This document shows positions 15,445 through 39,577 of a DNA stretch of 42,712 nt, piece after piece; position 1 is the first letter of the stretch; each line of letters begins with the position of its first letter. The notes beneath the pieces are model-generated. The model was not told the DNA's origin. It saw nothing but the letters and a program-made list of their open reading frames with translations, and did not search any database. The DNA lies in the NCBI GenBank assembly GCA_944381535.1, contig CALWLN010000160.1, positions 1 to 42,712 of the forward strand, read 5' to 3'. The stretch comes from an uncultured Lachnospiraceae bacterium (GTDB lineage Bacteria > Bacillota > Clostridia > Lachnospirales > Lachnospiraceae). The translations under genes and the position numbers were made by a program.

Positions 15445-15448
15445 CAAG

Positions 15449-15521
15449 AGCGCGAGACGGGACTCGAACCCGCGGCCTCGACCTTGGCAAGGTCGCGCTC
15501 CACCAACTGAGCCACTCGCGC
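15449..15521 (-). tRNA. tRNA-Gly(GCC)
   Basis: Full cloverleaf on the minus strand: acceptor GCGCGAG/CTCGCGC, D-arm GCTCAGTTGGTGGAGC, anticodon stem CGACC/GGTCG with loop TTGCCAA (anticodon GCC), T-arm GGTTCGAGTCC, discriminator T. The CCA end is not encoded. Last gene of the three-tRNA cluster. Confidence 0.96.
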
Positions 15522-15525
15522 AAAA

Positions 15526-15596
15526 AGCGGGTGATGGGAATCGAACCCACGTGTCCAGCTTGGAAGGCTGGTGTTCTACCATTGAACTACACCCGC
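15526..15596 (-). tRNA. tRNA-Gly(UCC)
   Basis: Acceptor GCGGGTG/CACCCGC, D-arm GTTCAATGGTAGAAC, anticodon loop CTTCCAA (anticodon TCC), T-arm GGGTTCGATTCCC, discriminator T. Four bases from tRNA-Gly(GCC). CCA is not encoded. Confidence 0.96.
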
Positions 15597-15618
15597 AGGG
15601 GTCATTTTCAAATGACAA

Positions 15619-15691
<73 letters not shown>

Positions 15692-15743: not shown

Positions 15744-15847
15744 GGAGATTTTCTTATTTTTTCATTTTAAATCAAACGTGCCTGTCGAGCAGGCTAGCCT
15801 ACCCGACCATTTTACCACCCACCCCGGTAAATGGCAAGCGCAGCCCC

Positions 15848-15876
15848 TTGCAAATCAAAAAATTTCTTGCTATCAT
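15848..15876 (+). promoter_or_regulatory. Promoter of the AraC gene, likely giving a leaderless mRNA
   Basis: TTGCAA (15848-15853), 17 bases, TATCAT (15871-15876). The predicted start site is 15883, the A of the AraC start codon, and no ribosome site lies upstream of that ATG. Confidence 0.55.
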
Positions 15877-15882
15877 AATGCT

Positions 15883-16722
15883 ATGAACAAATTAGTAACC
15901 GCTTTGAAAGAGCACAAAGAATTTACGAAAAATAATCCCTGGAGCGTCATCATCTCGACATTCCCCAATAATGAAATTGTCCCGGCCCATTATGCCGAGA
16001 CAATCGAGATTTTATTGTTTTGTGAGGTTGAGGGCGAGATACATATCGGAACCAACAGGCTTGAGCTGCACGGTCATCAGGCTGTTTATATTGCACCCAA
16101 TGTAGTCCATTCCATTCACTATAAGAAAAATAACGGCCGTCTCTCCAACATGAAGCTGGAGTTAAAGGGCCTCAAGGAATATATCGACATTGAGAACATT
16201 GTCCACAGCTCAGGCTGCAGCTTATCGGATTTAAACTACCTCGTTTCGGACTATGAAATCTGCTGTAACTTATCCGCCGCTTTATCGGATGACACCGTCA
16301 GCCTGGCGGACAAGCTGCTGGCGATCCTGTCCTTCTTCAAGGCCCAGCTTGCGGCCTCCGCACCCGGAAGCCGCATTCCTGTAAAGACCTCCGGTGATTT
16401 GCAGCTGCACCGCATTATCGACTGGACAGAAGCGAATTTCAGCAAAAAAATCACGGTGGACGAAGCCGCACAGATTCTGGGCTATAACAAATACTATTTT
16501 TGCAGCAAATTCAAGAAAGCCACCGGCATCACCTATCTGAACTATGTGAACACCGTCCGCATTTCCCATGCCTGCAATCTTCTGAAAAACGGCTGCACCA
16601 TCAACGAGGCCTGCGACGCATGCGGCTTTGAAAATCTGTCCTATTTTATCCAGCTGTTCAAGAAAATAATGGGCACAACTCCGAGAAAATATTGTCTGCA
16701 ATGCAGAGAATCTTCTTTATGA
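15883..16722 (+). CDS. AraC-family regulator with N-terminal cupin domain
   Basis: 279 residues: N-terminal cupin-like sensor (about 20-110, 'LELHGHQAVYIAPNVVHSIHY') and a C-terminal double HTH (about 175-275: 'ITVDEAAQILGYNKYYFCSKFKKATG' and 'TINEACDACGFENLSYFIQLFKK'). The start is ATG 15883; longer versions include non-coding leader. Its 3' end overlaps the FAD oxidoreductase gene by six bases from the opposite strand. It is the nearest regulator to the GRE operon, and AraC proteins with a cupin sense small metabolites, so it may control that operon; this is inference. Confidence 0.88.
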   Translation: MNKLVTALKEHKEFTKNNPWSVIISTFPNNEIVPAHYAETIEILLFCEVEGEIHIGTNRLELHGHQAVYIAPNVVHSIHYKKNNGRLSNMKLELKGLKEYIDIENIVHSSGCSLSDLNYLVSDYEICCNLSAALSDDTVSLADKLLAILSFFKAQLAASAPGSRIPVKTSGDLQLHRIIDWTEANFSKKITVDEAAQILGYNKYYFCSKFKKATGITYLNYVNTVRISHACNLLKNGCTINEACDACGFENLSYFIQLFKKIMGTTPRKYCLQCRESSL

Positions 16723-17853
16723 AAACCGTCCCTCCCGGGCATACCGGGCCGCCGCCTTTCCCGCCGCCTCCCCGGTCTGGGCGCAGACGGGAATGACGCG
16801 GGCCACCTCCCAGCCGTCCCCCTGGGGCGCCGATATGATTCTCCCGGCAGCCAGAAGATTGGGGAAGTTTTCATTGTATAAGGCCCCAAGAGGAATCTGA
16901 TAATGCTTCCCGACGCCATTTGGCCGAAAATCCCCACACTCTCCAATGGAGTCTTCGAAACATTCGCCGTCCACCCCATTGAAATCCGTCTTGCCCACGA
17001 TCCGCCGGATGGTCCGAAGCTGGGGCATGAAGGGAAGGGACATGATATCAAAACCATTTTTATCCATGCCGCTGATTTTCTTTAAAAGGCTTCTCTTTCC
17101 CTCCACCATATATTGGGTAATCTCCTCTGCGGTCCCCCCCGAGACCATCTCCATCCCCTTTGGATGGCCGTTTCCAAACATATCGCTTCCCGTATTGAGC
17201 CATTTCCGGAACACGGAAAAATCACTGTCCTCACAGAGCTTTTTAGCCATGTCCACGTCACAGTAGTGGGCGATATAGGTCATGTAATTCTTCCCCAGCA
17301 CGGTGGGAACCCCGGCCCGGTCCATAACGGAGGCGTCCCCGGTGGCGTCAATAACAGCTTTCGCCCCGAAAAATTCCCGTCCGTTGACGCTCTCCGTCAC
17401 CACACCTTCACAGCGGTTACGGTCCATGACCGGGTAGGTCGTAAGGGTGTCCAGCCTGAGGGTCACTCCATTTTCCAGAACAAATTCATCCAGTGCGGCG
17501 CTGAAAATTCCCGGTGAAAAGAAGGTGGAATACCGCTCGTTCCTGGGCTTGTTGTGGCCGCAGCCGCCCCATTTTTCCGGGAGAGTGTCAAAGCCGTATT
17601 GTACGACCAGACGGATAAGCTCCTCCGCCAGGCCATGTATCATCTGCTTCCCCTGGCCGTCGCAGAGAGGCTCGTACCAGGAAATCAGCCCGTTAGTGGC
17701 AAGTCCCCCTAAATTGACGCTCTTTTCAATGAGCAATGTGTCCGCTCCGCTTCTGGCAGCTGCGACAGCCGCGGCTACTCCTGCGATTCCCCCGCCTACG
17801 ACGATCACATCATAAGTCTCCCGTCTTGCGGGCTCCTGTCCTCTCAAATCCAT
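16717..17853 (-). CDS. FAD-dependent oxidoreductase (FAD_oxidored / fumarate-reductase-like)
   Basis: 378 residues with an N-terminal Rossmann dinucleotide fold (DVIVVGGGIAGVAAAVAAARSG, then LIEKSVNLGGLATNG) and the conserved 'VIDATGDASVMDRAGVP' block of the FAD_oxidored family. The second flavin-contact region (LLAAGRIISAPQGDGWEVARVIP) is present near the C-terminus. I chose ATG 17853; the frame extends upstream to 17934 but has no ribosome site there. It is the last gene of the GRE operon and probably oxidises or reduces the GRE substrate or product; the exact reaction is unknown. It lies 89 bases beyond the GRE stop. Confidence 0.75.
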   Translation of the reverse strand: MDLRGQEPARRETYDVIVVGGGIAGVAAAVAAARSGADTLLIEKSVNLGGLATNGLISWYEPLCDGQGKQMIHGLAEELIRLVVQYGFDTLPEKWGGCGHNKPRNERYSTFFSPGIFSAALDEFVLENGVTLRLDTLTTYPVMDRNRCEGVVTESVNGREFFGAKAVIDATGDASVMDRAGVPTVLGKNYMTYIAHYCDVDMAKKLCEDSDFSVFRKWLNTGSDMFGNGHPKGMEMVSGGTAEEITQYMVEGKRSLLKKISGMDKNGFDIMSLPFMPQLRTIRRIVGKTDFNGVDGECFEDSIGECGDFRPNGVGKHYQIPLGALYNENFPNLLAAGRIISAPQGDGWEVARVIPVCAQTGEAAGKAAARYAREGRFS

Positions 17854-17942
17854 TTTAAATACCAACCTTTCTACATGCATTGCGCCATATCTACCAGGCC
17901 CGAAGCACCGCACCAAGTAGAAACAATGATACACCAGACGTA

Positions 17943-20156
17943 CTACACTCCTTCTAAAAACCGGTCCACCACCAGTTGCCTGAACTGTGGGGAGAGACTT
18001 GCAAAGTATGCGGTAAATCCCGTCACACGCACCACCAGGTCCGGGTATAATTCGGGGTCCTTATTCGCCTCCATCAGCTTCTCCCCATCCAGGATGTTGA
18101 TGTTTATCAGCGTTCCGCCCTGCCTGAAATGTCCCAGAATAAAGTTCTCAATGATTTCCACCCCGTTGTCGTCTGCGGCCACCTTGGGGTCAAACTCTAT
18201 CTGTAAAGGCGCCGTATTCCCGTAGCCGCACTGCACGGAGGCAATGCCGTTGGACTGGGCGGTGGGCGCTCCGTCCCCGCGGAAATGGGGATTGGGGTTG
18301 GCTCCGTGGGAGATGGGCTCTCCCGCCCGCCGTCCGTTGGGCGTTGCCCCTACCTTTGAGCCGTATTCAATGGTTCGAGACCAGCTAAACCATCCTGGGA
18401 GCAACTGCCGGCCCGCCGGCATTTCCTGAGTCCTCACAAGCTTCACCCAGCTCTCCGTCAGTTTTCTGGCCCAGGCGTCGGATACTGTTCCTCCATGGCA
18501 GTATTTGGGGGATGAATTCAGTATGAGCCTTGTCCGCTCGTCCTGGAAATTATTGTCAAGGGCCTCGTAAACCTGTTCCCAGGAAAGGACCTTCTCTGTC
18601 TCCACCCTTGTCTGAAGCGCTCCGAAAGAATCCGCCACCACCGCCAGGCCCGCGCCGTCCACTCCCACGGTGTAGAACTCGGCTGCCTGGGAGGCGTCTT
18701 TCCCCTGTTCAATGGTATTTTTCATCATCAGATTCATCACCAGCTCCGGGGTAACCTCCCAGGCATGGTCCAGGTGAAGATTGATTCCCCTGGCTGTGAC
18801 GTCGATGGCCTTCTTTAAATGTGCTTCGTAAAGTTCGAAAAGCCTGTGGGTGCTTTTCTCCTTTTCCTCTTTCATCTCGGAAAGAGCCACGTCCAGAACC
18901 TTTGCGATGTTGATCTTTACCGTATCATTCATGGGGAATTCCCGGCCGGGGACGCACATCCAGTTGCAGCCCACTGCAATCCTCTCCCGGGCTGTTTTCC
19001 TGTCTACGCCGTTTCGCATATAGCCCTCCGCCAGGGCCTTGTCGTTGCAGAACCTGGGCCAGCCGTTTTTATTCTTTAAGAGGTAATAGACCGCCTTTTT
19101 CAAAAATGCCCTGTCGCAGTTTTCATGGACCCGCACCGTCAGATTACAGGCAATGTTAATGCTGTCCGCCGCTTCCAGAATTAAATAAGACAAGTGGTTG
19201 GTCATATCCTTATCATTTTCGTCCACCCCGGAAATCTGATAGTAGTGGGGATCAATCAGCAGCAGATTCGCAATGAGAAATTTTACGGTTTCATCGTCGA
19301 TGGCGCCGTTCTCCACGTCATTTTCATAATAAGGGTACAGCAGACGGTCCATCTGGAATCCGGCGCCGTCCCGGGTATAAATTCTGGAAGCGCAGTTAAA
19401 GAAAGCGGTCCACTGGCAGGCTTCTTGAAAGGTCCGGGGCGGGTCGTAACGCACCGCTTCACAGGTTTTTAGCATACGTTCCAGGTTTTCCTTAATCTCG
19501 GGCCGCTCCTCCTGCGGTATCATCTCCTTGATTTTCTCGATATGCCTGTCGATAAAACGGATGATGGCAAGGACCGTCCGCTCCTCAGCGTCATAAAAGG
19601 CTTTCCTGTCCCTGTTGATTTCCCGGTACTTCCTTATTTTTTCCAGCATGCCCCCAAAGCCCAGGGCGAAGCCGATGGAATAATCGCAGGCAAAATGAGC
19701 GTCGCCGTCAATGCCCGTTGTGATATTATATTTCTCCTGGAGGGGCTTTAAATCGTCATAGGGGAATCTCTGCTCATCCCAGCGCTTGCTCCACTGGTTG
19801 GTGGCCGTTTTCATGAATTCCCGGGTTTTTGGCTTTTTCTTCAGCCAGTCCGGCATATAGTGAAGGTCGCCTCTGTAATTTACCAACATATCCCGCCACC
19901 GTCCGCAGAGCATTTCCATGGGGTCCACATAGGGCGGGTGGGCGTCCATGATACGGCAGAAGTTCTCGCACATGCCCTCGTAGCCGTAGAAGCTCCCGTT
20001 GGAGCTGTTGTACCAGGGCTCCATCTCATAGTCCTCAGTGATGGGGACTGTGCCGAAGTCATCCAGGTCCGTGTATCCGTTCTGCTTTTTCTTCTCCAGG
20101 GTATGGCGTATTTTGGTTTCGCGCATTGCCTTTAATCTATCCGCGTATGTAAGCAT
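17943..20156 (-). CDS. Glycyl-radical enzyme of unknown reaction (pyruvate formate-lyase superfamily)
   Basis: 737 residues. The C-terminal glycyl-radical motif is intact: VVRVTGFTAYFASLSPQF with radical G713. The thiyl-radical loop reads AVGCNWMCVPGREF, with C397 the likely radical Cys and C401 close by. Known GRE dehydratases and lyases (glycerol/propanediol dehydratase, CutC, IslA, HypD) have Cys-x-Glu in this loop; here the position two after C397 is Trp. Pyruvate formate-lyase has Cys-Cys, also different. It overlaps its activase by 20 bases. Co-transcription with a sugar-type Gfo/Idh/MocA oxidoreductase and an FAD oxidoreductase suggests a sugar- or polyol-derived substrate, but I cannot assign it. 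ATG 20156 was chosen because the longer frame runs through the activase. Confidence 0.92.
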   Translation of the reverse strand: MLTYADRLKAMRETKIRHTLEKKKQNGYTDLDDFGTVPITEDYEMEPWYNSSNGSFYGYEGMCENFCRIMDAHPPYVDPMEMLCGRWRDMLVNYRGDLHYMPDWLKKKPKTREFMKTATNQWSKRWDEQRFPYDDLKPLQEKYNITTGIDGDAHFACDYSIGFALGFGGMLEKIRKYREINRDRKAFYDAEERTVLAIIRFIDRHIEKIKEMIPQEERPEIKENLERMLKTCEAVRYDPPRTFQEACQWTAFFNCASRIYTRDGAGFQMDRLLYPYYENDVENGAIDDETVKFLIANLLLIDPHYYQISGVDENDKDMTNHLSYLILEAADSINIACNLTVRVHENCDRAFLKKAVYYLLKNKNGWPRFCNDKALAEGYMRNGVDRKTARERIAVGCNWMCVPGREFPMNDTVKINIAKVLDVALSEMKEEKEKSTHRLFELYEAHLKKAIDVTARGINLHLDHAWEVTPELVMNLMMKNTIEQGKDASQAAEFYTVGVDGAGLAVVADSFGALQTRVETEKVLSWEQVYEALDNNFQDERTRLILNSSPKYCHGGTVSDAWARKLTESWVKLVRTQEMPAGRQLLPGWFSWSRTIEYGSKVGATPNGRRAGEPISHGANPNPHFRGDGAPTAQSNGIASVQCGYGNTAPLQIEFDPKVAADDNGVEIIENFILGHFRQGGTLININILDGEKLMEANKDPELYPDLVVRVTGFTAYFASLSPQFRQLVVDRFLEGV

Positions 20157-20907
20157 ATTTCTCAAGCTCCTTCTTGTATTCTTGCGTGGGAACAGGAAAT
20201 TCCACCACGGTCTGCCCCAGCGCTTTCTTCTTGGCGTTTCCAAGAGGATGATAGGGGAGCAGCTCATACTGCTTCACATTTCTAAGGTCCTTTAAAAATC
20301 GGGATATCTGGGCAATTCCCTGGTCGATTCCCGGGATTACGGGCGTTCTGGCAATGATGGGGATACCAAGCTTATTCAGCAGGATAAAATGCTCTTTGAT
20401 TTTCTCATTCCCCACCCCGGTATATTTTTTGTGTATCCCACTGTCCCATATTTTCAAATCCGCCATGACGAAATCCAGGCTCCGGAAGATTTCCTCATCA
20501 TAATAAATCAGGGAGGTTTCCACCGCGCAGTTTAACCCCTTCTCCCTGCACAGCCGGATGAACTCCCCAAGAAACGCTCTCTGGGCCAGAGGCTCGCCCC
20601 CGGAAATGGTCACTCCGCCGTCCTCGTTATAATATGCGGTATCCTCCATCACCTCGGAGAGCACCTCCCCCGCCGTCATCCATTTTCCGCAGAGCACCCT
20701 GGCCCCCGCGTAGCAGCCCTCCCGGCACCTGCCGCAGCCAATACATTTTTCCGGGTAAAATAACTCCTGGGGCTCAAAGGAAATGCACTCCGGATTGTGG
20801 CACCACATACAGGAGAGGGGACACCCTTTCAGAAAAACGGTGGTGCGGATTCCGGCCCCGTCATGGAGAGAGGCTCTTTGGATATCCGCAACTAGGCCTC
20901 TAACCAC
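20137..20907 (-). CDS. Glycyl-radical enzyme activating enzyme (radical SAM)
   Basis: 256 residues. The radical-SAM cluster motif is CPLSCMWC (C29, C33, C36), followed by one extra 4Fe-4S motif CIGCGRCREGC (C55-C65), typical of the activases of dehydratase-type GREs, though usually such proteins carry a second extra cluster; only one complete motif is seen here. The SAM-binding 'GGVTISGGEPLAQ' block is present. The start is the GTG at 20907, six bases after AGGAGG, overlapping the stop of the preceding oxidoreductase gene. Its product abstracts the hydrogen from G713 of the GRE encoded next. Confidence 0.92.
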   Translation of the reverse strand: MVRGLVADIQRASLHDGAGIRTTVFLKGCPLSCMWCHNPECISFEPQELFYPEKCIGCGRCREGCYAGARVLCGKWMTAGEVLSEVMEDTAYYNEDGGVTISGGEPLAQRAFLGEFIRLCREKGLNCAVETSLIYYDEEIFRSLDFVMADLKIWDSGIHKKYTGVGNEKIKEHFILLNKLGIPIIARTPVIPGIDQGIAQISRFLKDLRNVKQYELLPYHPLGNAKKKALGQTVVEFPVPTQEYKKELEKYAYIRG

Positions 20908-22006
20908 CGATGACCTCCTCCTTTCCGCTCCGGTTACTCTTGATCGCTCCGTCCAGCATGGCCATGACTTCCATGTTGACATCCAGCGTCAGCATATCAT
21001 AGATTGGCTCCCCGGTCTTTACATGGTTGGCGTACTGGCAAGGCATGTTTTTGAATTTTTCCTCGAAACGGATTCCCCGCGCCTCCACCTCATTGCCATA
21101 GAGATCAAAGGCTTTCACATCCGGGGCATTCTCCGCCCCTCCCGTACATAGGACGACGCCCTTACTGCAGATTACCATGGGGCCGGAGGGAATCACCGCC
21201 CTGGGAGTGGTCCAGGTTCCTTCGATGACCGCCAGTTTCTTATCGTATTTGATGATTGCCGCGAAATTATCCTCCGTGTCCCCATAGGGCGTGTTCAGGT
21301 TTGCTCCCGCAGACAGGACGGTTTTCGCTTCCCCACCCAGGAACCACCGGGAAAAGAAGCAGCCGTAGCAGCAGATATCCAGGTACACGCCGCCGCCGAA
21401 GCGGCTCTGGTGCCACCAGGTCCTGGCCCGCTGCGCATCGGTCATCTCCTCCGCCTGGGCGGTCACTCCCCTGTGCTTAGCTCCCTTGCCCAGGGGGCCT
21501 GTGTGGCCGTTGATATAGCGAAGCTCCAGGGGCGTCCCTACAATTTGGGCGTCCAGGGCCGCCTTCATTCTGTGGATATATTCCCGCCAGGCCACCGGCC
21601 AGTTCACCACCGCCAGGGTGCCGTACTTATCCACACTGGCTTTGATTTTCTCTGCTTCCTCCAGGCTTACCGCAATGGGCTTTTCTATGGAGACATTGAC
21701 TCCGCGCCTGGCGCATTCCTCCACCACCCTGGGCTTCTCGCTGTTTTCTGTCAGGATAAAGGCCAGTTCGGGCCTGACCTCCTCCAGCATTTGGATGTAA
21801 TCCTCGTAGACTACCTGGCAGTATTTTTCCTTTACATTGGCAAGGTTCCACTGGGGAGTGTACCGTAGCGGAGGGATAGGCTCCGCCCCCGATTCCACCC
21901 CGGCGATGGCCGCAAGCTCCATATCCGGCTGTTCACTGATGTATAGCGCCACTTCGTTTACGTGCATGTGGGCGAAGCCTATGATGACTGTTTTGATTGT
22001 TCTCAT
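20900..22006 (-). CDS. Gfo/Idh/MocA-family NAD(P)-dependent oxidoreductase
   Basis: 368 residues: an N-terminal Rossmann fold (MRTIKTVIIGFAHMHV) in which the usual GxGxxG is replaced by GFAHMH, the family 'EKP' motif in VNVSIEKPIAVS, and a C-terminal substrate domain with the likely catalytic 'GGGVYLDICCYGC'. It is first in the GRE operon; its stop overlaps the activase start. GGAGG precedes ATG. Members oxidise or reduce a sugar or cyclitol carbon. The altered nucleotide loop suggests a particular cofactor or substrate. A repeat copy sits in the leader (22041-22080). Confidence 0.85.
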   Translation of the reverse strand: MRTIKTVIIGFAHMHVNEVALYISEQPDMELAAIAGVESGAEPIPPLRYTPQWNLANVKEKYCQVVYEDYIQMLEEVRPELAFILTENSEKPRVVEECARRGVNVSIEKPIAVSLEEAEKIKASVDKYGTLAVVNWPVAWREYIHRMKAALDAQIVGTPLELRYINGHTGPLGKGAKHRGVTAQAEEMTDAQRARTWWHQSRFGGGVYLDICCYGCFFSRWFLGGEAKTVLSAGANLNTPYGDTEDNFAAIIKYDKKLAVIEGTWTTPRAVIPSGPMVICSKGVVLCTGGAENAPDVKAFDLYGNEVEARGIRFEEKFKNMPCQYANHVKTGEPIYDMLTLDVNMEVMAMLDGAIKSNRSGKEEVIGG

Positions 22007-22040
22007 TTAAAACCTCCCATATGAAACTTTTTTGTAAATT

Positions 22041-22080
22041 AATTATAGAAACTACTTCTCAAACTCTATAATCGTATATT
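22041..22080 (-). repeat. Diverged copy of the palindromic leader repeat
   Basis: Arms ATTATAG and CTATAAT around CTACTTCTCAAACT; aligned with the units at 6366-6437 it matches about 34 of 40 positions. It lies in the probable leader of the GRE operon, downstream of a weak candidate promoter (TTGGCT, 17 bases, TTAATA on the minus strand). Confidence 0.7.
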
Positions 22081-22402
22081 AAAGCATTTCCTTTGTTTAA
22101 GCCAAGTAATAATATTGGGATAAAATGTTGATATATTTGGTTATGGAATTTCGAAGGATATGACATTTTTGGTCCTAAGTCACGAAGCAAAGTGCGAAAA
22201 TTGTAACAAAATACGGGAAATTGCAAAAATAACCATCAAAAAATATACATTACTTGAACCAGAGAATTTTTTACGTAATTATCGTTCCTTGAAAAGCAGC
22301 AATTTAATAGTTACCATTTTTGTAAATAATGAAAATGAAGAAGAGGTATATAATATACTTGATGAATATTTCGCCACGAATGACGAAGGAGGAGAAAAGT
22401 AT

Positions 22403-24559
22403 ATGTATAAAGAGAAAAGATTAAAGTTTCGTTTTTTTTTAACGCATTTTGTAATCATCATTCCTCTTCTTGCAACAAGCATAGCAGGTTCACATGTTAT
22501 ATTGTATGAAGCCGAGAAAAGAGAAGATACAATGGCTTCCCAACAATTAGAAGACATAAAAATGGATTTTCTGCAAGAGTACCAATCCTACTATGACAGA
22601 AGTGTTTTACTTTCCAATAAATCAGAACTGGCTTCCGATAAAATGCTTAATAACCCGCAAAAAACATACGACGGCATCGAAATACTAAAACAGCAAATGC
22701 AATATTTCGACAATAACATTTATAGCTTATTTGTTACTTATGGGACAGATTATATATATTCACAATCCGGCCGGGCCAGGAAAAGAACCTATTTTTCCGA
22801 TATTTTAAAGTGTCGGGAGGAAAGCATAAGGCGTGGGTTGAATGCCATAGAGTGTGGGGAGGACACTCTGTTGCTGTTATACACGAATGATACGGAAGGA
22901 TATATGCTGTATAGCTATCAAACAAAGCAGGCAAATGATATTTCTGTTAATTTTGTCGTATCCTTCGAACAAATCAAAGAAATATTTAACTTGAAATATG
23001 ATGGACAGTATTATGAGTTGGAAACGGCAGACGGAAGTACACTGGTGCTGGGGCGTAACGTGGCTGGTGACATGGTGATTATCGATCACGATGAATGGAG
23101 CCAGCAAATCGACAAGAACAGCTATATCACCAAGGAAAGTATTTTAGATATCCCTAAAATAACGATCAGGCTGTATTATGGCAGAATGTCATTTAATATG
23201 AGCCATTGGCTTTATATTATGCAGGCTATCAATATCATACTCATTACGTCGGGAACTGTTTTGTCGGCCTGTATTTCATGGCTCATAAGCAAAAAGCGAA
23301 TCAACGAAATATTGCTTCTGGAAAAAGCAACAAAAGGGAATCTGGAACAGCCATTATCGGCAAAAAATATTTATAGCAATTTACAAAGCGCAATATTAAA
23401 CGGTTTTGCCGCAAACCAGAAGCTTGCAAACAGTGTGATTGAGCATAAGACAAAGCTGCATGACAAAACCGCGCAAATGATCTTTGGCGGATTATTCAAG
23501 GATTATGAAACCCTTGACCGTGCATTCCAGGAACTGGGATTTTCCGGATGTCCCGAAAAATTTTTCGTAGGTGCAGTGGGAACCGCAGTCTCACTGCAAC
23601 TCTCCCAGATACCGCCAATCCTGAAAGATTGCCTGATTGTGAATATGGAGCATAAAGAGCAGACAATTGTACTGTTTTTATTTACATTCCAAAAGAACGA
23701 TGTGAATCGGTTACACCGTAGGAACATTGCTGCGGAAATCAGAGCTCATCTGCTCCGGGAAGGCTTCAGGAAAATCCGCATAGGTATGAGCCAGATTTAT
23801 ACAAACCCCATGCTTATTGACTGTGCATGCAATGAAGCCGTTAAGACGCTGGAAGACATGCTATCCGCAAACCAAACGGAGTTTTACGCCTGTTGGGAAA
23901 CCCCGGCTCAAGCGAAGCCAGGGATACTGCCTGACGAAAAGCTTCTTCAGCAATTTCATCTCGCCTTGCAGGAGCACAATTTTGATGAAGCAATAGAGCA
24001 TTTTTATCAATTACTGCACAGCGGTTCCACAGCAGAATGTACACCCAGGAACCAATTATATCTGCGATATGTTATTTTGCAATGTGTGGTGAACTATTTG
24101 ATTGAAGAACAGGATGATAATAAAAAAGCATTTGTCAAGGACTGTATTAATATCGATGTGAACCATGAATCAGAATTTATAAAATCTGTCACAAATATTT
24201 TACGGCAATGTCTTACGACAAAAGAGGATGACAGTTTTACAAAGATGCTGAAATTTATTGACGACAATTATCAGAACTGTAATTTATCCTACGAAGATGT
24301 TGCTGCTGTAGGAGGAATAAGCAAAACCTATCTTAGCAAAATGTTCCGGGTAAAGCTTGGATTGTCTTACATTGAGTATCTTACATGGGTAAGAATGGAC
24401 AAGGCATGTACTCTGCTTAAGACTACAAACATGAATGTGGGAGAAATCGGGGAACTGGTTGGCTATGCTAACGCTGCAAGCTTTCGCAGAAAATTCAAGG
24501 AAAAATATGGAGTAAGCGCCTCTGAATATCGCAAAAAAGAGCGCGAATATGATGAATAA
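22403..24559 (+). CDS. Membrane-bound AraC-family sensor-regulator (YesN/dCache-type) of the carbohydrate island
   Basis: 718 residues: TM1 at about 10-32, an extracellular dCache-like sensor (about 35-265), TM2 near 270-300, a cytoplasmic linker, and a C-terminal AraC double HTH (last 100 residues, 'LSYEDVAAVGGISKTYLSKMFR' and 'NVGEIGELVGYANAASFRRKF'). Such one-component sensors usually control the sugar transporter next to them, and this gene heads the island. I chose ATG 22403, with GGAGGAG eight bases upstream, but the same frame is open for 93 codons further back, to a possible ATG at 22160 with a weaker site; that extension would put a soluble domain ahead of TM1 (see findings). Confidence 0.85.
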   Translation: MYKEKRLKFRFFLTHFVIIIPLLATSIAGSHVILYEAEKREDTMASQQLEDIKMDFLQEYQSYYDRSVLLSNKSELASDKMLNNPQKTYDGIEILKQQMQYFDNNIYSLFVTYGTDYIYSQSGRARKRTYFSDILKCREESIRRGLNAIECGEDTLLLLYTNDTEGYMLYSYQTKQANDISVNFVVSFEQIKEIFNLKYDGQYYELETADGSTLVLGRNVAGDMVIIDHDEWSQQIDKNSYITKESILDIPKITIRLYYGRMSFNMSHWLYIMQAINIILITSGTVLSACISWLISKKRINEILLLEKATKGNLEQPLSAKNIYSNLQSAILNGFAANQKLANSVIEHKTKLHDKTAQMIFGGLFKDYETLDRAFQELGFSGCPEKFFVGAVGTAVSLQLSQIPPILKDCLIVNMEHKEQTIVLFLFTFQKNDVNRLHRRNIAAEIRAHLLREGFRKIRIGMSQIYTNPMLIDCACNEAVKTLEDMLSANQTEFYACWETPAQAKPGILPDEKLLQQFHLALQEHNFDEAIEHFYQLLHSGSTAECTPRNQLYLRYVILQCVVNYLIEEQDDNKKAFVKDCINIDVNHESEFIKSVTNILRQCLTTKEDDSFTKMLKFIDDNYQNCNLSYEDVAAVGGISKTYLSKMFRVKLGLSYIEYLTWVRMDKACTLLKTTNMNVGEIGELVGYANAASFRRKFKEKYGVSASEYRKKEREYDE

Positions 24560-24587
24560 CCATATTAAATTTAAGGAGGATAAATCA

Positions 24588-25673
24588 ATGGAAAAAATAA
24601 AAATTGGTATTATTGGATGCGGGGGAATTGCAAACGGAAAACATATGCCGGCAATCCGTAAGCTTGATGATGTGGAAATGACGGCATTTTGCGATATTAT
24701 TCCTGAAAGGGCCCAAAAAGCAGCGGAAGAATACGGTACTTCTGATGCAAAGGTGTATACCGACTATAAAGAGCTTTTGAAAGATGAACGCATCAATAAT
24801 GTCCGCATTCTTACGCCCAATAAATGGCACGCCGTTATGTCCATCGAGGCATTGTATGCCGGTAAACATGTAATGTGTGAAAAGCCGATGGCCATAAATT
24901 ATAGAGAAGCGCAAGAAATGCTTAAGGCGCAAAAAGAAACAGGAAAGCTCCTCACTATTGGATATCAGCATAAATTTGATCCGGATGTGGTATATGCAAA
25001 ACAGGAAGCGCTGAAAAACACATTCGGCGATATATATTATGCAAAAGCAAATGTTATACGGAGAAGAGGCGTTCCAACCTGGGGTGTATTTACGCAAAAG
25101 GCAGAACAAGGCGGAGGTTCTCTTATCGATATAGGTACACATGCATTGGATATCGTTCTTTATCTTATGGATAATTATAAACCTAAAATGGTTTTGGGCA
25201 CCACTTATGACAGATTAAAAAACCAAAAGGAATGCGCGAACCCTTTTGGACCATGGAATGCCGAAAATTACGATGTCGAGGAATGCGCTTCCGGATATCT
25301 TGTAATGGAAAATGGCGCGACAATTATTCTGGAAACATCCTGGGCCCTTAATACAACAGATACCGCAAGTATCAGATATATGATTTGTGGAACCGATGCA
25401 GGCGCAGATAATTATAATGGTAAGTTCAAAATTAACGGCGTGTGTAACAATAAACAATACATAACAGAACCTGATTTATCAACGGGCGGTGTTGCCTTCT
25501 ATAAAGGAAACGAAACGTCTCCTGCCATCCAGGAGCAAAGGACATTTATCAATGCAATTCTCGGCAAGGAAGAACTTGTGACAAAAGCGGAAACCGCTGC
25601 AGTTGTAACGCAAATACTTGAGGGAATCTATATTTCAGCTAAAACAGGCGCGGCTTACTATTTTAACAGATAG
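24588..25673 (+). CDS. Gfo/Idh/MocA-family oxidoreductase
   Basis: 361 residues: N-terminal Rossmann fold with GIIGCGGIANGKHMPAI, EKP motif (KHVMCEKPMAIN) and a C-terminal beta-sheet domain with the catalytic 'GGGSLIDIGTHALDIVLYL' (candidate Lys/Asp/His set). Strong site AAGGAGG before ATG 24588. It is the first metabolic gene of the island. Members oxidise sugar hydroxyls, often at C3 or C4 of a glycoside, with NAD(P). Confidence 0.88.
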   Translation: MEKIKIGIIGCGGIANGKHMPAIRKLDDVEMTAFCDIIPERAQKAAEEYGTSDAKVYTDYKELLKDERINNVRILTPNKWHAVMSIEALYAGKHVMCEKPMAINYREAQEMLKAQKETGKLLTIGYQHKFDPDVVYAKQEALKNTFGDIYYAKANVIRRRGVPTWGVFTQKAEQGGGSLIDIGTHALDIVLYLMDNYKPKMVLGTTYDRLKNQKECANPFGPWNAENYDVEECASGYLVMENGATIILETSWALNTTDTASIRYMICGTDAGADNYNGKFKINGVCNNKQYITEPDLSTGGVAFYKGNETSPAIQEQRTFINAILGKEELVTKAETAAVVTQILEGIYISAKTGAAYYFNR

Positions 25674-25699
25674 CAGCACATCCAAAGGAGGGACCAGAG

Positions 25700-26680
25700 A
25701 TGTTTCAGATAGCCATGATAAGTCGCTGGCATCCACATGCCAGAGGAAACAGATATATAAATCAGCTAAAAGATATCCCGGAAACAGAGATATCCTGTGT
25801 TTGGGATTATGACAAAACAAGAGGAAAGGCATGGGCTGACGAATTAAAGGTGGATTTTGATACAAATTTAGATCATCTTCTTGCAAGAGAGGACGTTGAC
25901 GGCATCTGTATTACCGCTCCGACCAACATGCATAAGGATATCATAATAAAGGCGGCAAAGGCAGGGAAACACATATTTACAGAGAAGGCGCTGGCAATGA
26001 ATTATAAGGAGGCACTGGAAGTAAAAAAAGTCGTAGAAGAAACAAAGATCGAACTTGGAATTGCACTTCCAAGACGAGGAAACAGAGAATACTTATTCGC
26101 GAAAAAGCTTTATGCTCAAGGAAAAATGGGAGATATCGCTCTTATGAGGGTCAGAAATGCAGTAACGAATCAAGCAAGCTTTGAAGAACATTGGTTTAAA
26201 GAAGAACCCACGGGAGGTGGTGGCGCCATAAGAGATTTAGGCTGTCACAATATCGACCTGGCGTGTTGGATTCTAGGTGAGCCGGAGAGCATCAGCGTAA
26301 TGACCGGACATTTAAGAAACTTTGCGGTAGATGACACAGGCGTATGCAATATAAAATTTAAAAACGGCGCAATTGCGATGATTGACAGTACGTTTTCTGC
26401 TCCTCTTTGTAACAATTGGTATAATCTTGAAATTTATGGTTCAAAAATGGCATTTATTGCAGATCCGGGAAACGTAACACTGATACATCAGAATGGTACA
26501 AAAACTGTAATGCAAGTTGGAGATATCAAAGAAGGTTATCCCTTGCCGATTCAGCAGTGGGTAAATGCCTGTACCGGAAAAGGTCAAAATATATGTAATG
26601 TAGATGCAGGTGTTCTTGTAAATAAAGTGCTAGATGCCGCCACTGTAGCTATGAAGAAAAATTGCACCGTTACCATTTAA
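25700..26680 (+). CDS. Gfo/Idh/MocA-family oxidoreductase (second in island)
   Basis: 326 residues. The nucleotide loop is unusual (ISRWHPHARGNRY in place of GxGxxG), but the EKP-like 'KHIFTEKALAMN' and 'GGGAIRDLGCHNIDLACWI' of the family are present. AAGGAGG precedes ATG. It follows the first Gfo/Idh/MocA gene with a 26-base gap. A pair of such enzymes, one with an altered cofactor loop, is compatible with a redox-neutral oxidise/reduce cycle on a sugar, as known for some glycoside-cleaving routes; not proven here. Confidence 0.85.
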   Translation: MFQIAMISRWHPHARGNRYINQLKDIPETEISCVWDYDKTRGKAWADELKVDFDTNLDHLLAREDVDGICITAPTNMHKDIIIKAAKAGKHIFTEKALAMNYKEALEVKKVVEETKIELGIALPRRGNREYLFAKKLYAQGKMGDIALMRVRNAVTNQASFEEHWFKEEPTGGGGAIRDLGCHNIDLACWILGEPESISVMTGHLRNFAVDDTGVCNIKFKNGAIAMIDSTFSAPLCNNWYNLEIYGSKMAFIADPGNVTLIHQNGTKTVMQVGDIKEGYPLPIQQWVNACTGKGQNICNVDAGVLVNKVLDAATVAMKKNCTVTI

Positions 26681-26735
26681 TATTCAAGCGGAGAAAGCTT
26701 CTCCACTTAGAAACTTTTTGTGAGGCAAGACTTTT

Positions 26736-27731
26736 ATGAAATATATGGATATCAACGGCTTAAAAAAGCCCCTTTCTGTTTTAGTGTACGGCACAGCAAC
26801 ACCGATCATATTTCGCGCAACAAAAGAAAATGCCAGCGACAATGAAAAAAAAGAAGCATATGAATTGCTGGATAATGTCTTTGCGGCAGGCATAAACGTT
26901 TTTGACTGTGCGGCCCATTACGGTGAGGAAGTACTGGGTGAATGGATGGAAAAAAGGCAAAACAGAGACGACTGCATAGTCATAACAAAGTGTGCTCATC
27001 CAAATAAATGGCGTTCCAGGGTCACATCCTTTGACATTTTAGCTGATGTGCATGACAGCTTAAAAAAGCTGAAAACCGATTATATCGACATCTATATGCT
27101 GCACAGGGATAACACAGAAACTCCTGTGGAAATCATCGTTGATACATTAAATCAATTGTATCACGAAGGAAAAATCAAGGTATTCGGAGGTTCGAATTGG
27201 ACATGCCAGCGAATTGAAGCGGCAAACGAATATGCTCTGAAACATAATCTTATTCCATTTCGTATATCGAGCCCTAACTTTGGTCTTGCGGAACAGATTG
27301 CGGATCCATGGAAAGACGATGCGAAATGGGGAAACGGCTGCGTTACAATATCCGGTCCGGAAAATGAACCGTCCAGAAAATGGTATGTCAGACATGATAT
27401 GCCCGTTATTGCCTACTCCAGCCTTGCGCATGGTTTTTTCTCAGGAGCGTTTCAAAGCCGGGAACCTGAAAAAGCATTACTGGTATTGGATGGGCCAGGT
27501 ATCACAGGATACTTTTGTGACAATAATCTGGAACGTTTAAGACGATGTGAGGAACTTGCCGAAGAAAAAGGCTGTACTGTTGCACAGATAGCACTTGCCT
27601 GGCTTTTCCGTCAACCATTGAAGGTCTTTGCACTAACATCACCGACAACTCAGGAACAACTCATGCAAAGTATAGAGGCGTTGGATATATCGTTAACACC
27701 GGCGGAAAGCAAATGGCTTGATTTAAAATAA
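26736..27731 (+). CDS. Aldo/keto reductase
   Basis: 331 residues. The catalytic tetrad is complete: D57, Y62, K85 and H123 (FDCAAHYG, VITKCAHP, MLHRDN). The NADPH-binding part at the C-terminus (FALTSPTTQEQLMQSIEAL) fits the family. It lies 15 bases before the first ABC permease gene. It likely reduces a keto sugar or aldehyde in the island pathway; the substrate is unknown. Confidence 0.88.
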   Translation: MKYMDINGLKKPLSVLVYGTATPIIFRATKENASDNEKKEAYELLDNVFAAGINVFDCAAHYGEEVLGEWMEKRQNRDDCIVITKCAHPNKWRSRVTSFDILADVHDSLKKLKTDYIDIYMLHRDNTETPVEIIVDTLNQLYHEGKIKVFGGSNWTCQRIEAANEYALKHNLIPFRISSPNFGLAEQIADPWKDDAKWGNGCVTISGPENEPSRKWYVRHDMPVIAYSSLAHGFFSGAFQSREPEKALLVLDGPGITGYFCDNNLERLRRCEELAEEKGCTVAQIALAWLFRQPLKVFALTSPTTQEQLMQSIEALDISLTPAESKWLDLK

Positions 27732-27745
27732 AGAAGGAATCAGAT

Positions 27746-28681
27746 ATGAAATATAAAAAACAAAAAAAGCAAAAATTTAAAAACCAACTAAAAGTAATAT
27801 CAAAAAGATGGCAATTATACGCTTTAATGCTGCCAGCTATACTTTACACGGCACTGTTTGCTTATAAACCAATGTATGGATTATTAATTGCATTCCAGGA
27901 TTTCAGCGTCAGAAAAGGCGTATGGGGAAGCGACTGGGTAGGACTTAAGCACTTTGAAAGATTATTCGGCTCCTATTGGTTTCCGATTGCTTTTAGAAAT
28001 ACGCTTGAAATCAGCTGCCTTGATATACTGATTGGGTTTCCGCTCCCCATCATCCTGGCACTGCTATTAAATGAGTTAAAAAGGGCAAGATTTCGAAAAA
28101 CGGTGCAAACCGTATCCTATGCGCCTCATTTTATCTCTACAGTAGTTATGTGCGGCATGATAACCATGTTTCTGAGCCCAAGCACAGGTATTATCAATAA
28201 GCTTATCACTGCCCTGGGATTCGACGCAGTCTATTTTATGCAGGAGCCCTCCATGTTTAAGTGGATTTATGTACTCAGCGGCGTATGGCAGGGCGTTGGC
28301 TGGAGCTCCATCATTTATTTCGCGGCCTTATCCAGTGTGGATCCTTCTCTTCTGGAAGCAGCCGACATAGACGGTGCCACACGCCTTCAAAAAATATGGC
28401 ATATTAACTTACCTGCAATTTTACCTACCATCGTCGTAATGTTTATCTTACGCTGCGGCCAGATATTAAGCATGGGATACGAAAAAGTATACCTGCTGCA
28501 AACGGATTTGAATTTATTCGGTTCGGAAATTATATCTACCTATGTATATAAGGTGGGTTTAGAGCAATCGGATTTTTCATTTTCCACAGCCGTCGGTTTG
28601 TTTAACACAGTAATTAACTGTACACTCTTGCTTTCGGCCAATGCATTATCGAAAAAGCTGACAAAAACAGGATTATTTTAG
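27746..28681 (+). CDS. Sugar ABC transporter permease, LplB/UgpA type
   Basis: 311 residues, six predicted TM helices and the EAA coupling loop (ALSSVDPSLLEAADIDGATRLQKIWHINLPAI, contacting the ATPase). First of the two permeases. The transporter has no ATPase gene in the window; Lpl/YtcP-type systems normally use a shared MsmX-like ATPase encoded elsewhere. Confidence 0.93.
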   Translation: MKYKKQKKQKFKNQLKVISKRWQLYALMLPAILYTALFAYKPMYGLLIAFQDFSVRKGVWGSDWVGLKHFERLFGSYWFPIAFRNTLEISCLDILIGFPLPIILALLLNELKRARFRKTVQTVSYAPHFISTVVMCGMITMFLSPSTGIINKLITALGFDAVYFMQEPSMFKWIYVLSGVWQGVGWSSIIYFAALSSVDPSLLEAADIDGATRLQKIWHINLPAILPTIVVMFILRCGQILSMGYEKVYLLQTDLNLFGSEIISTYVYKVGLEQSDFSFSTAVGLFNTVINCTLLLSANALSKKLTKTGLF

Positions 28682-28707
28682 CTATAAGGAAAGGGAACTG
28701 AAATACT

Positions 28708-29622
28708 ATGAAAAAATTGAGAACAATCATAAGTGGAAGCAATTTTTTTCAATTGGTGGTGAATATACTGATGTTTGCTTTTCTGCTGGTGGAATTGTAT
28801 CCGATTATATACGTTATTATTTGTTCTTTCAGCGATCCGGATGCAGTGGCAAGAGGCGATATCATATTATGGCCGGTAGGTTTTACGCTGCGCGGCTATG
28901 AAATGGTACTTGAATATAGTGATATCTGGACCGGATATGCCAATACAATCTTTTACACCGTTGCAGGAACCATGATTAACCTGGCTGTCACACTCCCCTG
29001 TGCTTACGCACTTTCCAGAAAGGATTTGCGGGGTCGTAAAATTTTTATGATTTTTTTCATGATTACGATGTATGTGAGTGGCGGATTAATTCCTGGATAT
29101 TTAAATGTGAAATCCTTCGGTCTCTTAAATACGAGAGCGGTGTTGATACTTATAGGAGCAATGTCCGTGTACAATATGATTGTGGCTAGAAGCTTTTTTT
29201 CCACTTCTATCCCCAATGAAATAACGGAAGCCGCAAGAATTGACGGATGTAACGACTTCTCAATTTTTTCAAAAATCATATTGCCCTTATCTAAGCCGAT
29301 TGTGGTTGTTATGATTTTGTACTACGGTATCGGACATTGGAATTCCTATTTTAATGCCATGATTTATCTGGATGACAGAAGCAAGTTTCCACTACAGATG
29401 TTTTTGCGGGAAATATTGTTACAAGGAAAGATTTATCAGGAAGCCATAAACAGCAGCGATATTTCTCCGGAAGAAGCATTACGGCTGGCAGAGCTGGCAA
29501 AATCATCGGAATTGATTAAGTACTGCGTAATCATTGTCAGCACGCTGCCCATGATGATCATTTATCCGAAGCTCCAAAAATATTTTGAGAAAGGTATTAT
29601 GATTGGTTCCATAAAAGGCTAA
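28708..29622 (+). CDS. Sugar ABC transporter permease, LplC/YtcP type
   Basis: 304 residues, six TM helices, EAA loop (IPNEITEAARIDGCNDFSIFSKIILPLSKPI). Second permease, 26 bases after the first. Paired with LplB-type permeases in oligosaccharide import; the C-terminal 'YPKLQKYFEKGIMIGSIKG' is typical for this group. Confidence 0.93.
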   Translation: MKKLRTIISGSNFFQLVVNILMFAFLLVELYPIIYVIICSFSDPDAVARGDIILWPVGFTLRGYEMVLEYSDIWTGYANTIFYTVAGTMINLAVTLPCAYALSRKDLRGRKIFMIFFMITMYVSGGLIPGYLNVKSFGLLNTRAVLILIGAMSVYNMIVARSFFSTSIPNEITEAARIDGCNDFSIFSKIILPLSKPIVVVMILYYGIGHWNSYFNAMIYLDDRSKFPLQMFLREILLQGKIYQEAINSSDISPEEALRLAELAKSSELIKYCVIIVSTLPMMIIYPKLQKYFEKGIMIGSIKG

Positions 29623-29683
29623 TCTATGATTTTAACTGCAAAAGCAGTTGAAATAAATAAAAAAATAAAAGGAGGATTTACGT

Positions 29684-31408
29684 ATGAGGAAACGAATTTT
29701 AAGCGCACTTCTTGCATCTGCAATGCTGAGCGCACTGTTGGCAGGTTGTGGAGGAAACGACCAAGGAGGTGAAAACGAAAATGACGGTAATGACGTCGCT
29801 GAGGAACAGGGCGGCAAAGAGAATGAGGACGGTGAAGAACAAGAGGGGGATTCTGTCCGCATTTCGGACGAAACCATTACATTAACCCTCGCAGGCCCTA
29901 GTGGCGCTACCGCAGCCGACTGGGAGTCTTCCCTGCAGTTTGTGGAATATGAAAAACGTCTGGGAATTAAATTTGATGCTACTACTTATACCAACGAGCA
30001 ATGGGACAGCAGATTGACATTAATGATGGCAAGTGATGAAATGCCGGATATTCTTGGCATGGGTAATTCTCCTATGTCCCGTTCAGAGGTGGAACAATAT
30101 GCGGCCGACGGATATCTCCTTGACTTTAGCGAGTACCTGGATCTTATGCCTAATTTAACAAAATACATGGAAGAATATCCGGAATTTGCAAAATCCATTA
30201 CTCTGGAAGACGGTGGTATCTACGGCTTCACTTTCCTAAACATCCGCTCAGATGCCTGCTTCCAAAATTATATCCTAATGTCCCAGACCTGGCTGGACAA
30301 CGTGGGAATGGAACAGCCGGAATCTCTGGACGATCTGTATAATGTATTGACCGCATTCAAAGAACAGGATGCAAACGGAAATGGAGATCCTACAGATGAG
30401 ATACCTATGGGAATGGCGGGGCAGTCCTATTATGCCGCCGAATTACCGATTTTGTGGGCCTACGGCATCAACAGCACAAATTATGTTCTGCACCTTAGCG
30501 CAGATGAGGAAACCAATGAGGTTGGCTTATGGGATACCACTGAGAACTATAAGGAATTCCTGAAATATATGAACAGACTATATGAAGAAGGCCTGATAAA
30601 CGAAGATGCATATATTGTGGACGCTACCGAATTCCATACGGCAGCCAAGGAAGGTGTGTACGGATATGTCGGAGGCAGCGGTTCCTTGCCGGGCACCTGC
30701 CAGGAAACCATGGAATGGTATCAGGAAACAGGATTTTCTGCAGAAGGATATAATGAAGCAGACACGGTTGTATTAAATCCCCGTGTAAATGAGACATTCC
30801 GGTTTGTAGCCAATGCAGATACCGCTTACCCGGAAGAAATAGCCAAATTTGTAGATTATTTATTCACCAATGAGGGCGTATGGTCCGGTGTCAACGGTTA
30901 TGAAGGAATCACCTTTGATTTTACAGAAATAGCTGGATATGATGTTATCGACCATAACGCATATGCAGAAGCTGCTGATTTAAGTACCGGCGATTATCGA
31001 AACAATATCGCTATAGCACCGGGAGCCTTTAGTTTACTGGCTATTAATGAAGGTACCATCTACGATATGCTGGAGAACATTGCCTACGAAGAACTGACCA
31101 ATTATGAAGGCGATTGCTGGAAGAATTCCACGGCAAATGCATTAACTCAAAAAGCATTCAGAGATAACGAGATCAAAATTATGGACCGCTTCCCGACGCT
31201 GTATTATACCGAAGAGGAATCACAGGAACGTGCTACATTGCATACGGATATTGAAAATTATTTGATCACTATGAAAGCCCAGTTTATAACAGGCGCACTG
31301 GATATCGACGCGTCATGGGACGACTTCTTAAATCAACTGAATGAAATGGGACTGGAAAGATATTTAGAGATAACCCAAGATGCATATGATAGATATGTTG
31401 CTGAATAA
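29684..31408 (+). CDS. Sugar ABC transporter substrate-binding lipoprotein, LplA type
   Basis: 574 residues: signal peptide with lipobox LLAGC (Cys about residue 22), a Glu/Asp/Gly-rich tether (about 23-60) and a long binding domain ('LTLMMASDEMPDILGM...YAADGYLLDFSEYL', 'KEQDANGNGDPTDEIPMG'), as in LplA-type oligosaccharide receptors. AAGGAGG precedes ATG. A small stem (AACTGC/GCAGTT) sits in the gap before it, and a terminator-like hairpin follows, which would give this gene a higher transcript level than the genes downstream. The ligand is unknown. Confidence 0.93.
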   Translation: MRKRILSALLASAMLSALLAGCGGNDQGGENENDGNDVAEEQGGKENEDGEEQEGDSVRISDETITLTLAGPSGATAADWESSLQFVEYEKRLGIKFDATTYTNEQWDSRLTLMMASDEMPDILGMGNSPMSRSEVEQYAADGYLLDFSEYLDLMPNLTKYMEEYPEFAKSITLEDGGIYGFTFLNIRSDACFQNYILMSQTWLDNVGMEQPESLDDLYNVLTAFKEQDANGNGDPTDEIPMGMAGQSYYAAELPILWAYGINSTNYVLHLSADEETNEVGLWDTTENYKEFLKYMNRLYEEGLINEDAYIVDATEFHTAAKEGVYGYVGGSGSLPGTCQETMEWYQETGFSAEGYNEADTVVLNPRVNETFRFVANADTAYPEEIAKFVDYLFTNEGVWSGVNGYEGITFDFTEIAGYDVIDHNAYAEAADLSTGDYRNNIAIAPGAFSLLAINEGTIYDMLENIAYEELTNYEGDCWKNSTANALTQKAFRDNEIKIMDRFPTLYYTEEESQERATLHTDIENYLITMKAQFITGALDIDASWDDFLNQLNEMGLERYLEITQDAYDRYVAE

Positions 31409-31418
31409 ATTTTGATTT

Positions 31419-31459
31419 TAGGGCTGCTATTCTTGAGTGATGGCAGCCCATCCATTTTT
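31419..31459 (+). terminator. Terminator/attenuator after the binding-protein gene
   Basis: Stem GGGCTGCTAT with its partner ATGGCAGCCC (about 11 pairs, one or two G-U), 7-base loop, followed by TCCA and TTTTT. It lies inside the operon, between the transporter and catabolic genes, so partial termination would boost the binding protein. Confidence 0.6.
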
Positions 31460-31501
31460 CGTATACGCAAGACACAAATCAGAGGATACAGGTAGAATAA
31501 A

Positions 31502-32266: not shown

Positions 32267-32283
32267 TGCGAGGTGCAAAAGAA

Positions 32284-33249: not shown

Positions 33250-33259
33250 GGAGGATAAT

Positions 33260-34279: not shown

Positions 34280-34313
34280 CGATACTGTCAATGCAGCGGA
34301 CGGAGAAAATACA

Positions 34314-37307: not shown

Positions 37308-37318
37308 GGAGGAACGTG

Positions 37319-38680: not shown

Positions 38681-38694
38681 GGGAGGGAAACGCT

Positions 38695-39474: not shown

Positions 39475-39537
39475 ATCTGTTCCGTAAGAGATTGGAAGCC
39501 ACATAGTCTCACCAATCACATTTTTGCTGATTTTCCA

Positions 39538-39565: not shown

Positions 39566-39577
39566 AAAACTATAATC

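Follow-up and report, generated by a model that had tools for sequence, protein, structure and literature searches.

A glycyl-radical enzyme (GRE) with tryptophan where the eliminases of its superfamily carry a glutamate is encoded in a 42,712-nucleotide stretch of DNA from an uncultured Lachnospiraceae bacterium (assembly GCA_944381535.1, contig CALWLN010000160.1), which as a whole is referred to here as the window. Together with its radical S-adenosylmethionine (SAM) activase and a Gfo/Idh/MocA protein, named c2, this enzyme is a real, conserved variant: its radical and thiyl sites are intact, it is accompanied by an activase, it keeps a fixed pattern of Trp, His, Glu and Asp residues, its link to c2 does not vary and it occurs in a sugar setting. 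Our preferred explanation, to which we assign a probability of about 0.4, is that it is a canonical radical enzyme of a new Trp-loop branch, acting as a radical C–O lyase whose substrate is a sugar or keto-glycoside and which does without the glutamate of the CXE motif. That the substrate is carbohydrate-derived is, in our judgement, likely, with about half of this likelihood falling to C–O lyase chemistry.

Tryptophan replaces the eliminase glutamate

Pfam recognised PFL-like (322.5 bits) and Gly_radical (49.7 bits) in the GRE. The C-terminal motif of the superfamily, RVxG[FWY] with its glycine (described in excerpts of PMC11528403), is present as RVTGF, so that the radical site G713 is intact, as the original prediction had stated, and its numbering holds from the ATG at 20156, which follows an AAGGAG about 12 nt upstream. 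The glycine is kept, and not replaced by the Ala, Ser or Thr that marks aminoacyl-radical enzymes. The thiyl loop, GCNWMCVPGRE, also reads as first described: C397 is followed by N398 and not by the second cysteine of the adjacent pair typical of pyruvate formate-lyase (PflB), and W399 occupies Cys+2, the place of the eliminase glutamate. The C397 column is Cys in 90/90 aligned rows, and Trp fills Cys+2 in all 49 rows of the group. The neighbouring activase had been proposed as a match, which its score against the NCBIfam activase subfamily TIGR02494 bears out (242.1, cut-off 174.35); it carries the Pfam domains Radical_SAM, Fer4_12 and Fer4, and its translation holds CxxxCxxC plus one four-Cys ferredoxin stretch.

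The GRE itself scores far below every NCBIfam model listed (TIGR01774, 274.7 vs 678.2; HypD, 207.3 vs 1100; CutC, 146.6 vs 1050), and it reached the cut-off of none of the equivalogs HypD, CutC, HPAD, IAD and HpsG/HpfG. By sequence profile the nearest solved relatives are glycerol dehydratase and PflD, and by fold the AlphaFold model matches AfPFL2, PflD and glycerol dehydratase first. An ordinary small-polyol dehydratase, of the kind that acts on glycerol or propanediol but with an altered loop, would agree with glycerol dehydratase ranking first by sequence among the solved structures and with the alignment of H154 and D411 to its H164 and D447. However, the identity is only about 25%, and the genes that recur as partners encode Gfo/Idh/MocA dehydrogenases, sugar isomerases and sugar transporters rather than the aldehyde and alcohol dehydrogenases of diol use; moreover, no genes for microcompartments came to notice among the scanned families, which covered part of the neighbours. 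We consider this explanation improbable.

The tryptophan defines a branch of GREs

Relatives were sought at several taxonomic depths, scoring mostly two first-look candidates per genome, which makes the counts lower bounds. A scan of genome contigs gave 12 loci at 73–82%. Among 391 genomes of the class, 31 matched (E up to 1e-60), 30 of them with a GRE of the Trp-loop type and one (G079) with a CVE type; among 398 genomes of the phylum there were two further true members, the other five matches being without Trp, and four others were found among 196 genomes of the order, all of the Trp type, and two others among 150 of the family. A profile built from 12 relatives scored 590–1251 bits on Trp-type proteins (fragments included), 372–393 on a distant Trp group with a GCQW loop and at most 338 on other GREs.

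After removal of 19 loci (duplicates or fragments) and one second match in L090 from 110 matches, 90 GREs were aligned, of which 49 have Trp at Cys+2, each of them also with the Cys, His154, Glu406 and Asp411. Of the 41 other rows, 36 have Glu at Cys+2 and none has Trp there, and six have Glu at the position of E406. Since similarity to the window was the criterion for collecting the rows, 49/90 is not a frequency; among the dropped loci, the 13 with a GCxW match carry Trp and the remaining six do not. Trp at Cys+2 is not a chance substitution, because it is kept together with His154, Glu406 and Asp411 in 49/49 Trp rows.

In a tree of 52 chosen rows the 25 Trp rows formed one side of a branch with a Shimodaira–Hasegawa-like approximate likelihood ratio test (SH-aLRT) value of 98; the tree was searched for quickly, leaves 18 forks open and contains some long branches. 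The Trp clade is separate from the YbiW, PflD, HypD, CutC, HPAD and PflB rows included and is nested among eliminase-type (CXE) GREs; PflB, YbiW and PflD were represented by the E. coli proteins, and HypD, CutC and HPAD by proteins over, or from, the NCBIfam model searches rather than by the studied enzymes, while IslA, benzylsuccinate synthase, indoleacetate decarboxylase and propanediol dehydratase were left out. Together with the absence of any equivalog at cut-off, this agrees with the distinct GRE group that had been predicted. As a mark of this particular operon the loop is conserved but was drawn too narrowly, for the wider Trp superclade includes the loop types GCNWMC, GCHWMS, GCHWC, GCNWTA and GCQWYC.

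Several observations extend the picture of the branch. The distant GCQW group (L079, L080, L155 and L156) has an activase of its own, and units of Trp-GRE plus activase also occur outside the c2 cassette (L091, L092, L032 and similar loci). At L055:1662-3796 and L078:2852-5117 the GRE gene is interrupted and reads as two open frames, owing either to a mutation or to an error in the assembly. On contigs C70, C147 and C117 the window's own genome encodes three or more additional GREs, which are of other types; two of them, with GC[IV]ENF loops, lie near the Trp clade in the tree.

The CXE motif is conserved among GRE eliminases, where its Glu binds the substrate hydroxyl, and in HypD Glu436 and His160 are both essential and lie 2.5 A apart (excerpts of PMC7077986 and PMC8473560). 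Of this pair the Trp-GREs keep the histidine and not the glutamate, a Glu being fixed at Cys+9 instead. The Trp loop could accordingly be read as a mark of non-elimination chemistry (C–C cleavage, isomerisation or migration) on a sugar or sugar acid, there being no ketyl-type elimination without the CXE glutamate: in all 49 Trp rows that glutamate is absent, and PflB (CVS) and one HPAD-family row (CLA), which belong to GREs of other chemistry, likewise have no CXE. Nevertheless, the Trp clade falls among CXE GREs in the tree, and the loci show no recurring formate, coenzyme A or decarboxylation partner genes, which leaves this reading rather unlikely.

A Gfo/Idh/MocA protein is the constant partner

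Of 21 close loci with enough flank (L009, L029 and L058 were omitted for short flanks, and L049 is a copy of L007), c2 is present in 21, the activase in 17, a DgpA-related Gfo/Idh/MocA gene (c3) in 18, the c4 and c5 pair in 10, c6 and c7 in eight and the FAD (flavin adenine dinucleotide) oxidoreductase gene in four. L154, which was found later, adds c2, activase, c3, c6, c7 and FAD, bringing the totals of 22 to 22, 18, 19, 10, 9 and 5, respectively. At 17 loci c3 lies on the GRE strand, and in the window it is divergent. The predicted conservation of both oxidoreductase neighbours therefore held for c2 (22/22) but not for the FAD oxidoreductase (5/22), which we rejected as a core partner, although the FAD count can be low since L013, L017 and L056 have less than 400 nt downstream. 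A characterised cluster with the same loop, or neighbours that are not conserved, had been named beforehand as telling against the prediction, and neither was found for the set of GRE, activase and Gfo/Idh/MocA protein.

The association also appears at the level of genomes. Among the 391 genomes c2 (at least 48%, a limit chosen after viewing the list, in which the next match was 40%) occurs in 13 and a close GRE in 13, with 12 shared (hypergeometric p=7.5e-21); the c2 search scored at most five first-look candidates per genome and so gives a lower bound. Both exceptions lie at contig ends: in G012 the GRE starts at base 283, and in G204 the contig ends within the c2 frame. A link produced by hitch-hiking on a mobile gene block, and not by a shared pathway, would account for the patchy spread (two other matches among 150 same-family genomes and none in one same-genus genome) and for the three tRNA genes that adjoin the operon at 15448-15691. 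Against this, c2 stays with the GRE where the gene order has changed (L053) and at close Trp-loop loci that have no activase gene in the fetched flanks (L015, L016, L053 and L057), and the co-occurrence is as strong as given above, which makes hitch-hiking very improbable.

The altered nucleotide loop of c2, GFAHMH, had been singled out correctly, but it is a trait of the subfamily and not an individual oddity: G10, H13, M14 and H15 are invariant in 12/12 aligned relatives. The idea that this altered nicotinamide adenine dinucleotide (NAD) loop signals something broken was rejected on that basis. The EKP motif (E108, K109 and P110) is invariant in alignment A3. Gfo/Idh/MocA dehydrogenases have a catalytic His after the Asp; in c2 a Tyr stands there in 22/22 rows, one of them a duplicate. 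Its AlphaFold model (pLDDT, the predicted local distance difference test score, of 84.4) matches the Gfo/Idh/MocA family by Foldseek, as does its Pfam assignment (GFO_IDH_MocA). In c4, another Gfo/Idh/MocA group (L007:470-1771 and others), the motif reads SAVP or TAVP, without the EKP lysine, in 15/15 rows, one a duplicate, and with this lysine lost c4 may not be a dehydrogenase. The c5 protein resembles hydroxypyruvate isomerase (161.3 bits, below the cut-off of 353.45).

Trp-loop GREs occur in a sugar setting

The sugar setting of the Trp-GREs is well supported. DgpA oxidises glycosides at C3, after which a separate DgpB-C lyase cleaves them (excerpts of PMC8563793 and PMC10628242). Two proteins were compared with the PDB for likeness to DgpA: c3 of L007, which scored 196.4 bits with DgpA1 and 192.8 with DgpA (next solved protein, 93.2), and the protein at 24549-25673 of the window, with 388.5 bits for DgpA1 (9m3d), 333.7 for DgpA (7xr9) and 98.4 for the next. 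The other cluster c3 proteins are 38–73% identical to that of L007, and the window's is 33% identical to it.

Genes for sugar use also adjoin the more distant Trp-GREs, as seen in a subset of neighbours chosen by eye for family scans. L091 combines a ROK regulator, a ribose-type ATP-binding cassette (ABC) transporter, the activase and the GRE, and L156, with a clade E GRE, has an ABC transporter of the same ribose type. FGGY and PfkB kinases lie at L074, GH130 at L092, an aldose epimerase at L064 and a phosphomannose-isomerase-like protein at L062, while in one genome, G978, D-lyxose isomerase and PfkB genes stand beside both GREs (L154 and L155) and are near-identical at the two GRE types. 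The GRE might instead act on a non-sugar part, for example an aglycone freed from a plant glycoside, with the sugar genes handling the other half; DgpA relatives act on flavonoid glycosides (excerpts of PMC8563793 and PMC11239390), and the c2 cassette travels with the DgpA-related c3. Yet the two-gene units of GRE and activase at L091 and L156 adjoin sugar-type ABC importers and nothing aromatic, and we find this alternative quite unlikely. For the putative new radical step in sugar, polyol or cyclitol breakdown proposed at the outset, the neighbours uphold the sugar setting.

A radical C–O lyase as the preferred reading

For a radical C–O lyase of the Trp-loop branch we infer the substrate, the bond broken, the order of steps and the residue roles as follows. 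By analogy with its family, the activase would use SAM to place a radical on G713, from where it would move to C397. In a ring-shaped sugar derivative the C397 thiyl radical would then abstract hydrogen at a carbinol carbon, and the breaking of a C–O bond at the adjoining carbon would dehydrate the substrate, open its ring or release an aglycone. W399 might form a wall for the ring in place of the usual glutamate, and the proton could be handled by E406, H154 or D411, E406 or H154 possibly taking over as base. The Gfo/Idh/MocA partners c2 and the DgpA-related c3 may serve to form the keto-sugar substrate or to reduce the product. In the open-access literature searched we found no paper linking GREs with Gfo/Idh/MocA proteins, deglycosylation or a Trp loop.

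A more specific form, which we think unlikely, is a radical deglycosidase, in which the GRE would break the glycosidic or ether C–O bond of a 3-keto sugar made by the DgpA-related partner. If true, this would be a one-electron route to a step that the literature, in the excerpts at hand, describes only for acid/base lyases and hydrolases, and the Trp-loop superclade would constitute an entire class of GREs that are specific for sugars and do without the CXE base.

Several points weigh against a radical C–O lyase. Elimination itself is in doubt, as the enzyme lacks the CXE glutamate by which the known eliminases are defined, and since neighbours differ between clades, one reaction for all Trp-GREs is unlikely. 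The substrate, product and activity proposed for the GRE are putative, drawn from sequence and context. The AlphaFold model of the GRE, for which the input was limited to 13 close sequences, has a mean pLDDT of 65.3, falling below 50 at residues 394-412, the glycyl region and the C-terminus; with such values around the Cys loop no active-site pocket is readable from it, and a pocket reading was abandoned. In addition, the DgpA homologue of the window is encoded on the opposite strand, within a block of 38–46% guanine-cytosine (GC) content, so that it and the GRE may have separate histories; the block genes tested (26736-33249 and 34233-38680) have no same-order counterpart at other GRE loci, and L010, L014 and L054 are without c3. 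Finally, the CGDB (PF19906) lyase subunit was found neither in the window's own genome (0/1) nor in 20 further genomes (0/20), G204 among these 21 being a presumed carrier only. The CGDB model is above cut-off in 12/150 same-family genomes and in G965, a carrier of a distant, clade E Trp-GRE; compared with 12/150, absence from 21 genomes is weak and no proof of absence in GRE carriers.

The Glu beside the radical Cys is treated as a mark of GRE eliminases, and a large Trp branch with a different fixed Glu is a natural exception, offering a direct system in which to ask how far GREs need a CXE base. As it is strictly paired with a single Gfo/Idh/MocA subfamily and with relatives of DgpA, the search for a substrate becomes concrete.

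Layout of the window

The operon lies on the minus strand at 16717-22006 and is transcribed in the order Gfo/Idh/MocA, radical-SAM activase, GRE, FAD oxidoreductase. All four genes had been placed in one transcript by overlap. At the starts read from the sequence (GTG 20907 and ATG 20156) the activase gene shares 8 nt with the Gfo gene and 20 nt with the GRE gene, but the FAD gene (FAD_oxidored, 189.1 bits) appears to be joined less tightly, its likely ATG at 17853 lying about 90 nt past the GRE stop. GC content is 0.48–0.55 in 1-22000 (52–55% in the GRE operon) and 0.38–0.46 in 22001-42000, where a plus-strand block with the regulator, the DgpA-like gene, an ABC transporter, a rhamnosidase-like gene and GH28 gives the impression of having been acquired separately, for the use of pectin. 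The tRNA genes beside the operon (two Gly and one Phe) are a possible island border.

Table 1. Genes of the window and key codons of the GRE.
Feature	Position	Strand	Basis
GRE, Trp-loop type, 737 aa	17943..20156	-	Pfam PFL-like and Gly_radical; open frame from 20267; start by ribosome site and relatives
Radical-SAM activase, 256 aa, GTG start	20137..20907	-	TIGR02494 above cut-off; open frame from 20982
Gfo/Idh/MocA protein c2, GFAHMH loop, Tyr replacing catalytic His	20900..22006	-	Pfam, relatives, AlphaFold/Foldseek
FAD oxidoreductase (PF12831), optional member, likely start 17853	16717..17853	-	Pfam; open frame from 17934
AraC-type regulator, convergent	15778..16722	+	Pfam
Large AraC-type regulator, divergent from GRE operon	22160..24559	+	Pfam
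DgpA-like Gfo/Idh/MocA glycoside 3-dehydrogenase, possible pathway member	24549..25673	+	PDB sequence match; low-GC block
C397 codon, expected thiyl-radical cysteine, loop GCNWMCVPGREFPMND (GCNWMCVPGRE)	18966..18968	-	Invariant in alignments A1 and A2 and in 49/49 Trp rows; probable role, from family
W399 codon, replacing CXE glutamate (Cys+2)	18960..18962	-	Trp in 49/90 rows, Glu in 36 of other 41
E406 codon, candidate replacement base (Cys+9)	18939..18941	-	Glu in 49/49 Trp rows, 6/41 others; role putative
D411 codon	18924..18926	-	Asp in 49/49 Trp rows; aligns with D447 of glycerol dehydratase
H154 codon, aligned with HypD His160	19695..19697	-	His in 49/49 Trp rows, 30/41 others
G713 codon, glycyl-radical site (RVTGFTAYF)	18018..18020	-	Alignments

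Comparison with known systems

With the GRE eliminases (glycerol dehydratase, HypD, CutC and IslA) the enzyme of the window shares the PFL-like barrel, RVxG, the catalytic Cys, an activase and the His at the position of HypD His160; unlike them, it has Trp for the CXE glutamate and Glu at Cys+9, and it is about 19–25% identical to the reference rows. Closer in their ligands are YbiW and PflD, which we take to be 1,5-anhydrohexitol-6-phosphate enzymes. PDB titles give PflD with 1,5-anhydromannitol-6-phosphate (8id0) and YbiW with 1,5-anhydroglucitol-6-phosphate (8id7), and on the strength of these titles sugar C–O cleavage is known in the GRE superfamily. These are GREs with a sugar-derived ligand, and PflD is among the nearest to the window GRE by profile and fold; they nonetheless keep CXE (CIE and CVE) and sit on separate tree branches, and an FsaA or PTS (phosphotransferase system) partner gene was not noticed at Trp-GRE loci. 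With PflB the superfamily and the radical domain are common, but PflB has Cys-Cys (CCVSP) where the window GRE has C397-N398, at 18.8% identity. The aminoacyl radical enzymes (Ala, Ser and Thr forms; excerpts of PMC11528403) are likewise GRE relatives drawn from genomes, with an unknown reaction, and differ in that the window GRE keeps the glycine. The Dgp pathway for C- and O-glycosides (DgpA, DgpB and DgpC) resembles these loci in its 3-dehydrogenase, a DgpA-like one lying in the window and the DgpA-related c3 in 19/22 clusters, whereas there it is the DgpB-C lyase that cuts the glycosidic bond.

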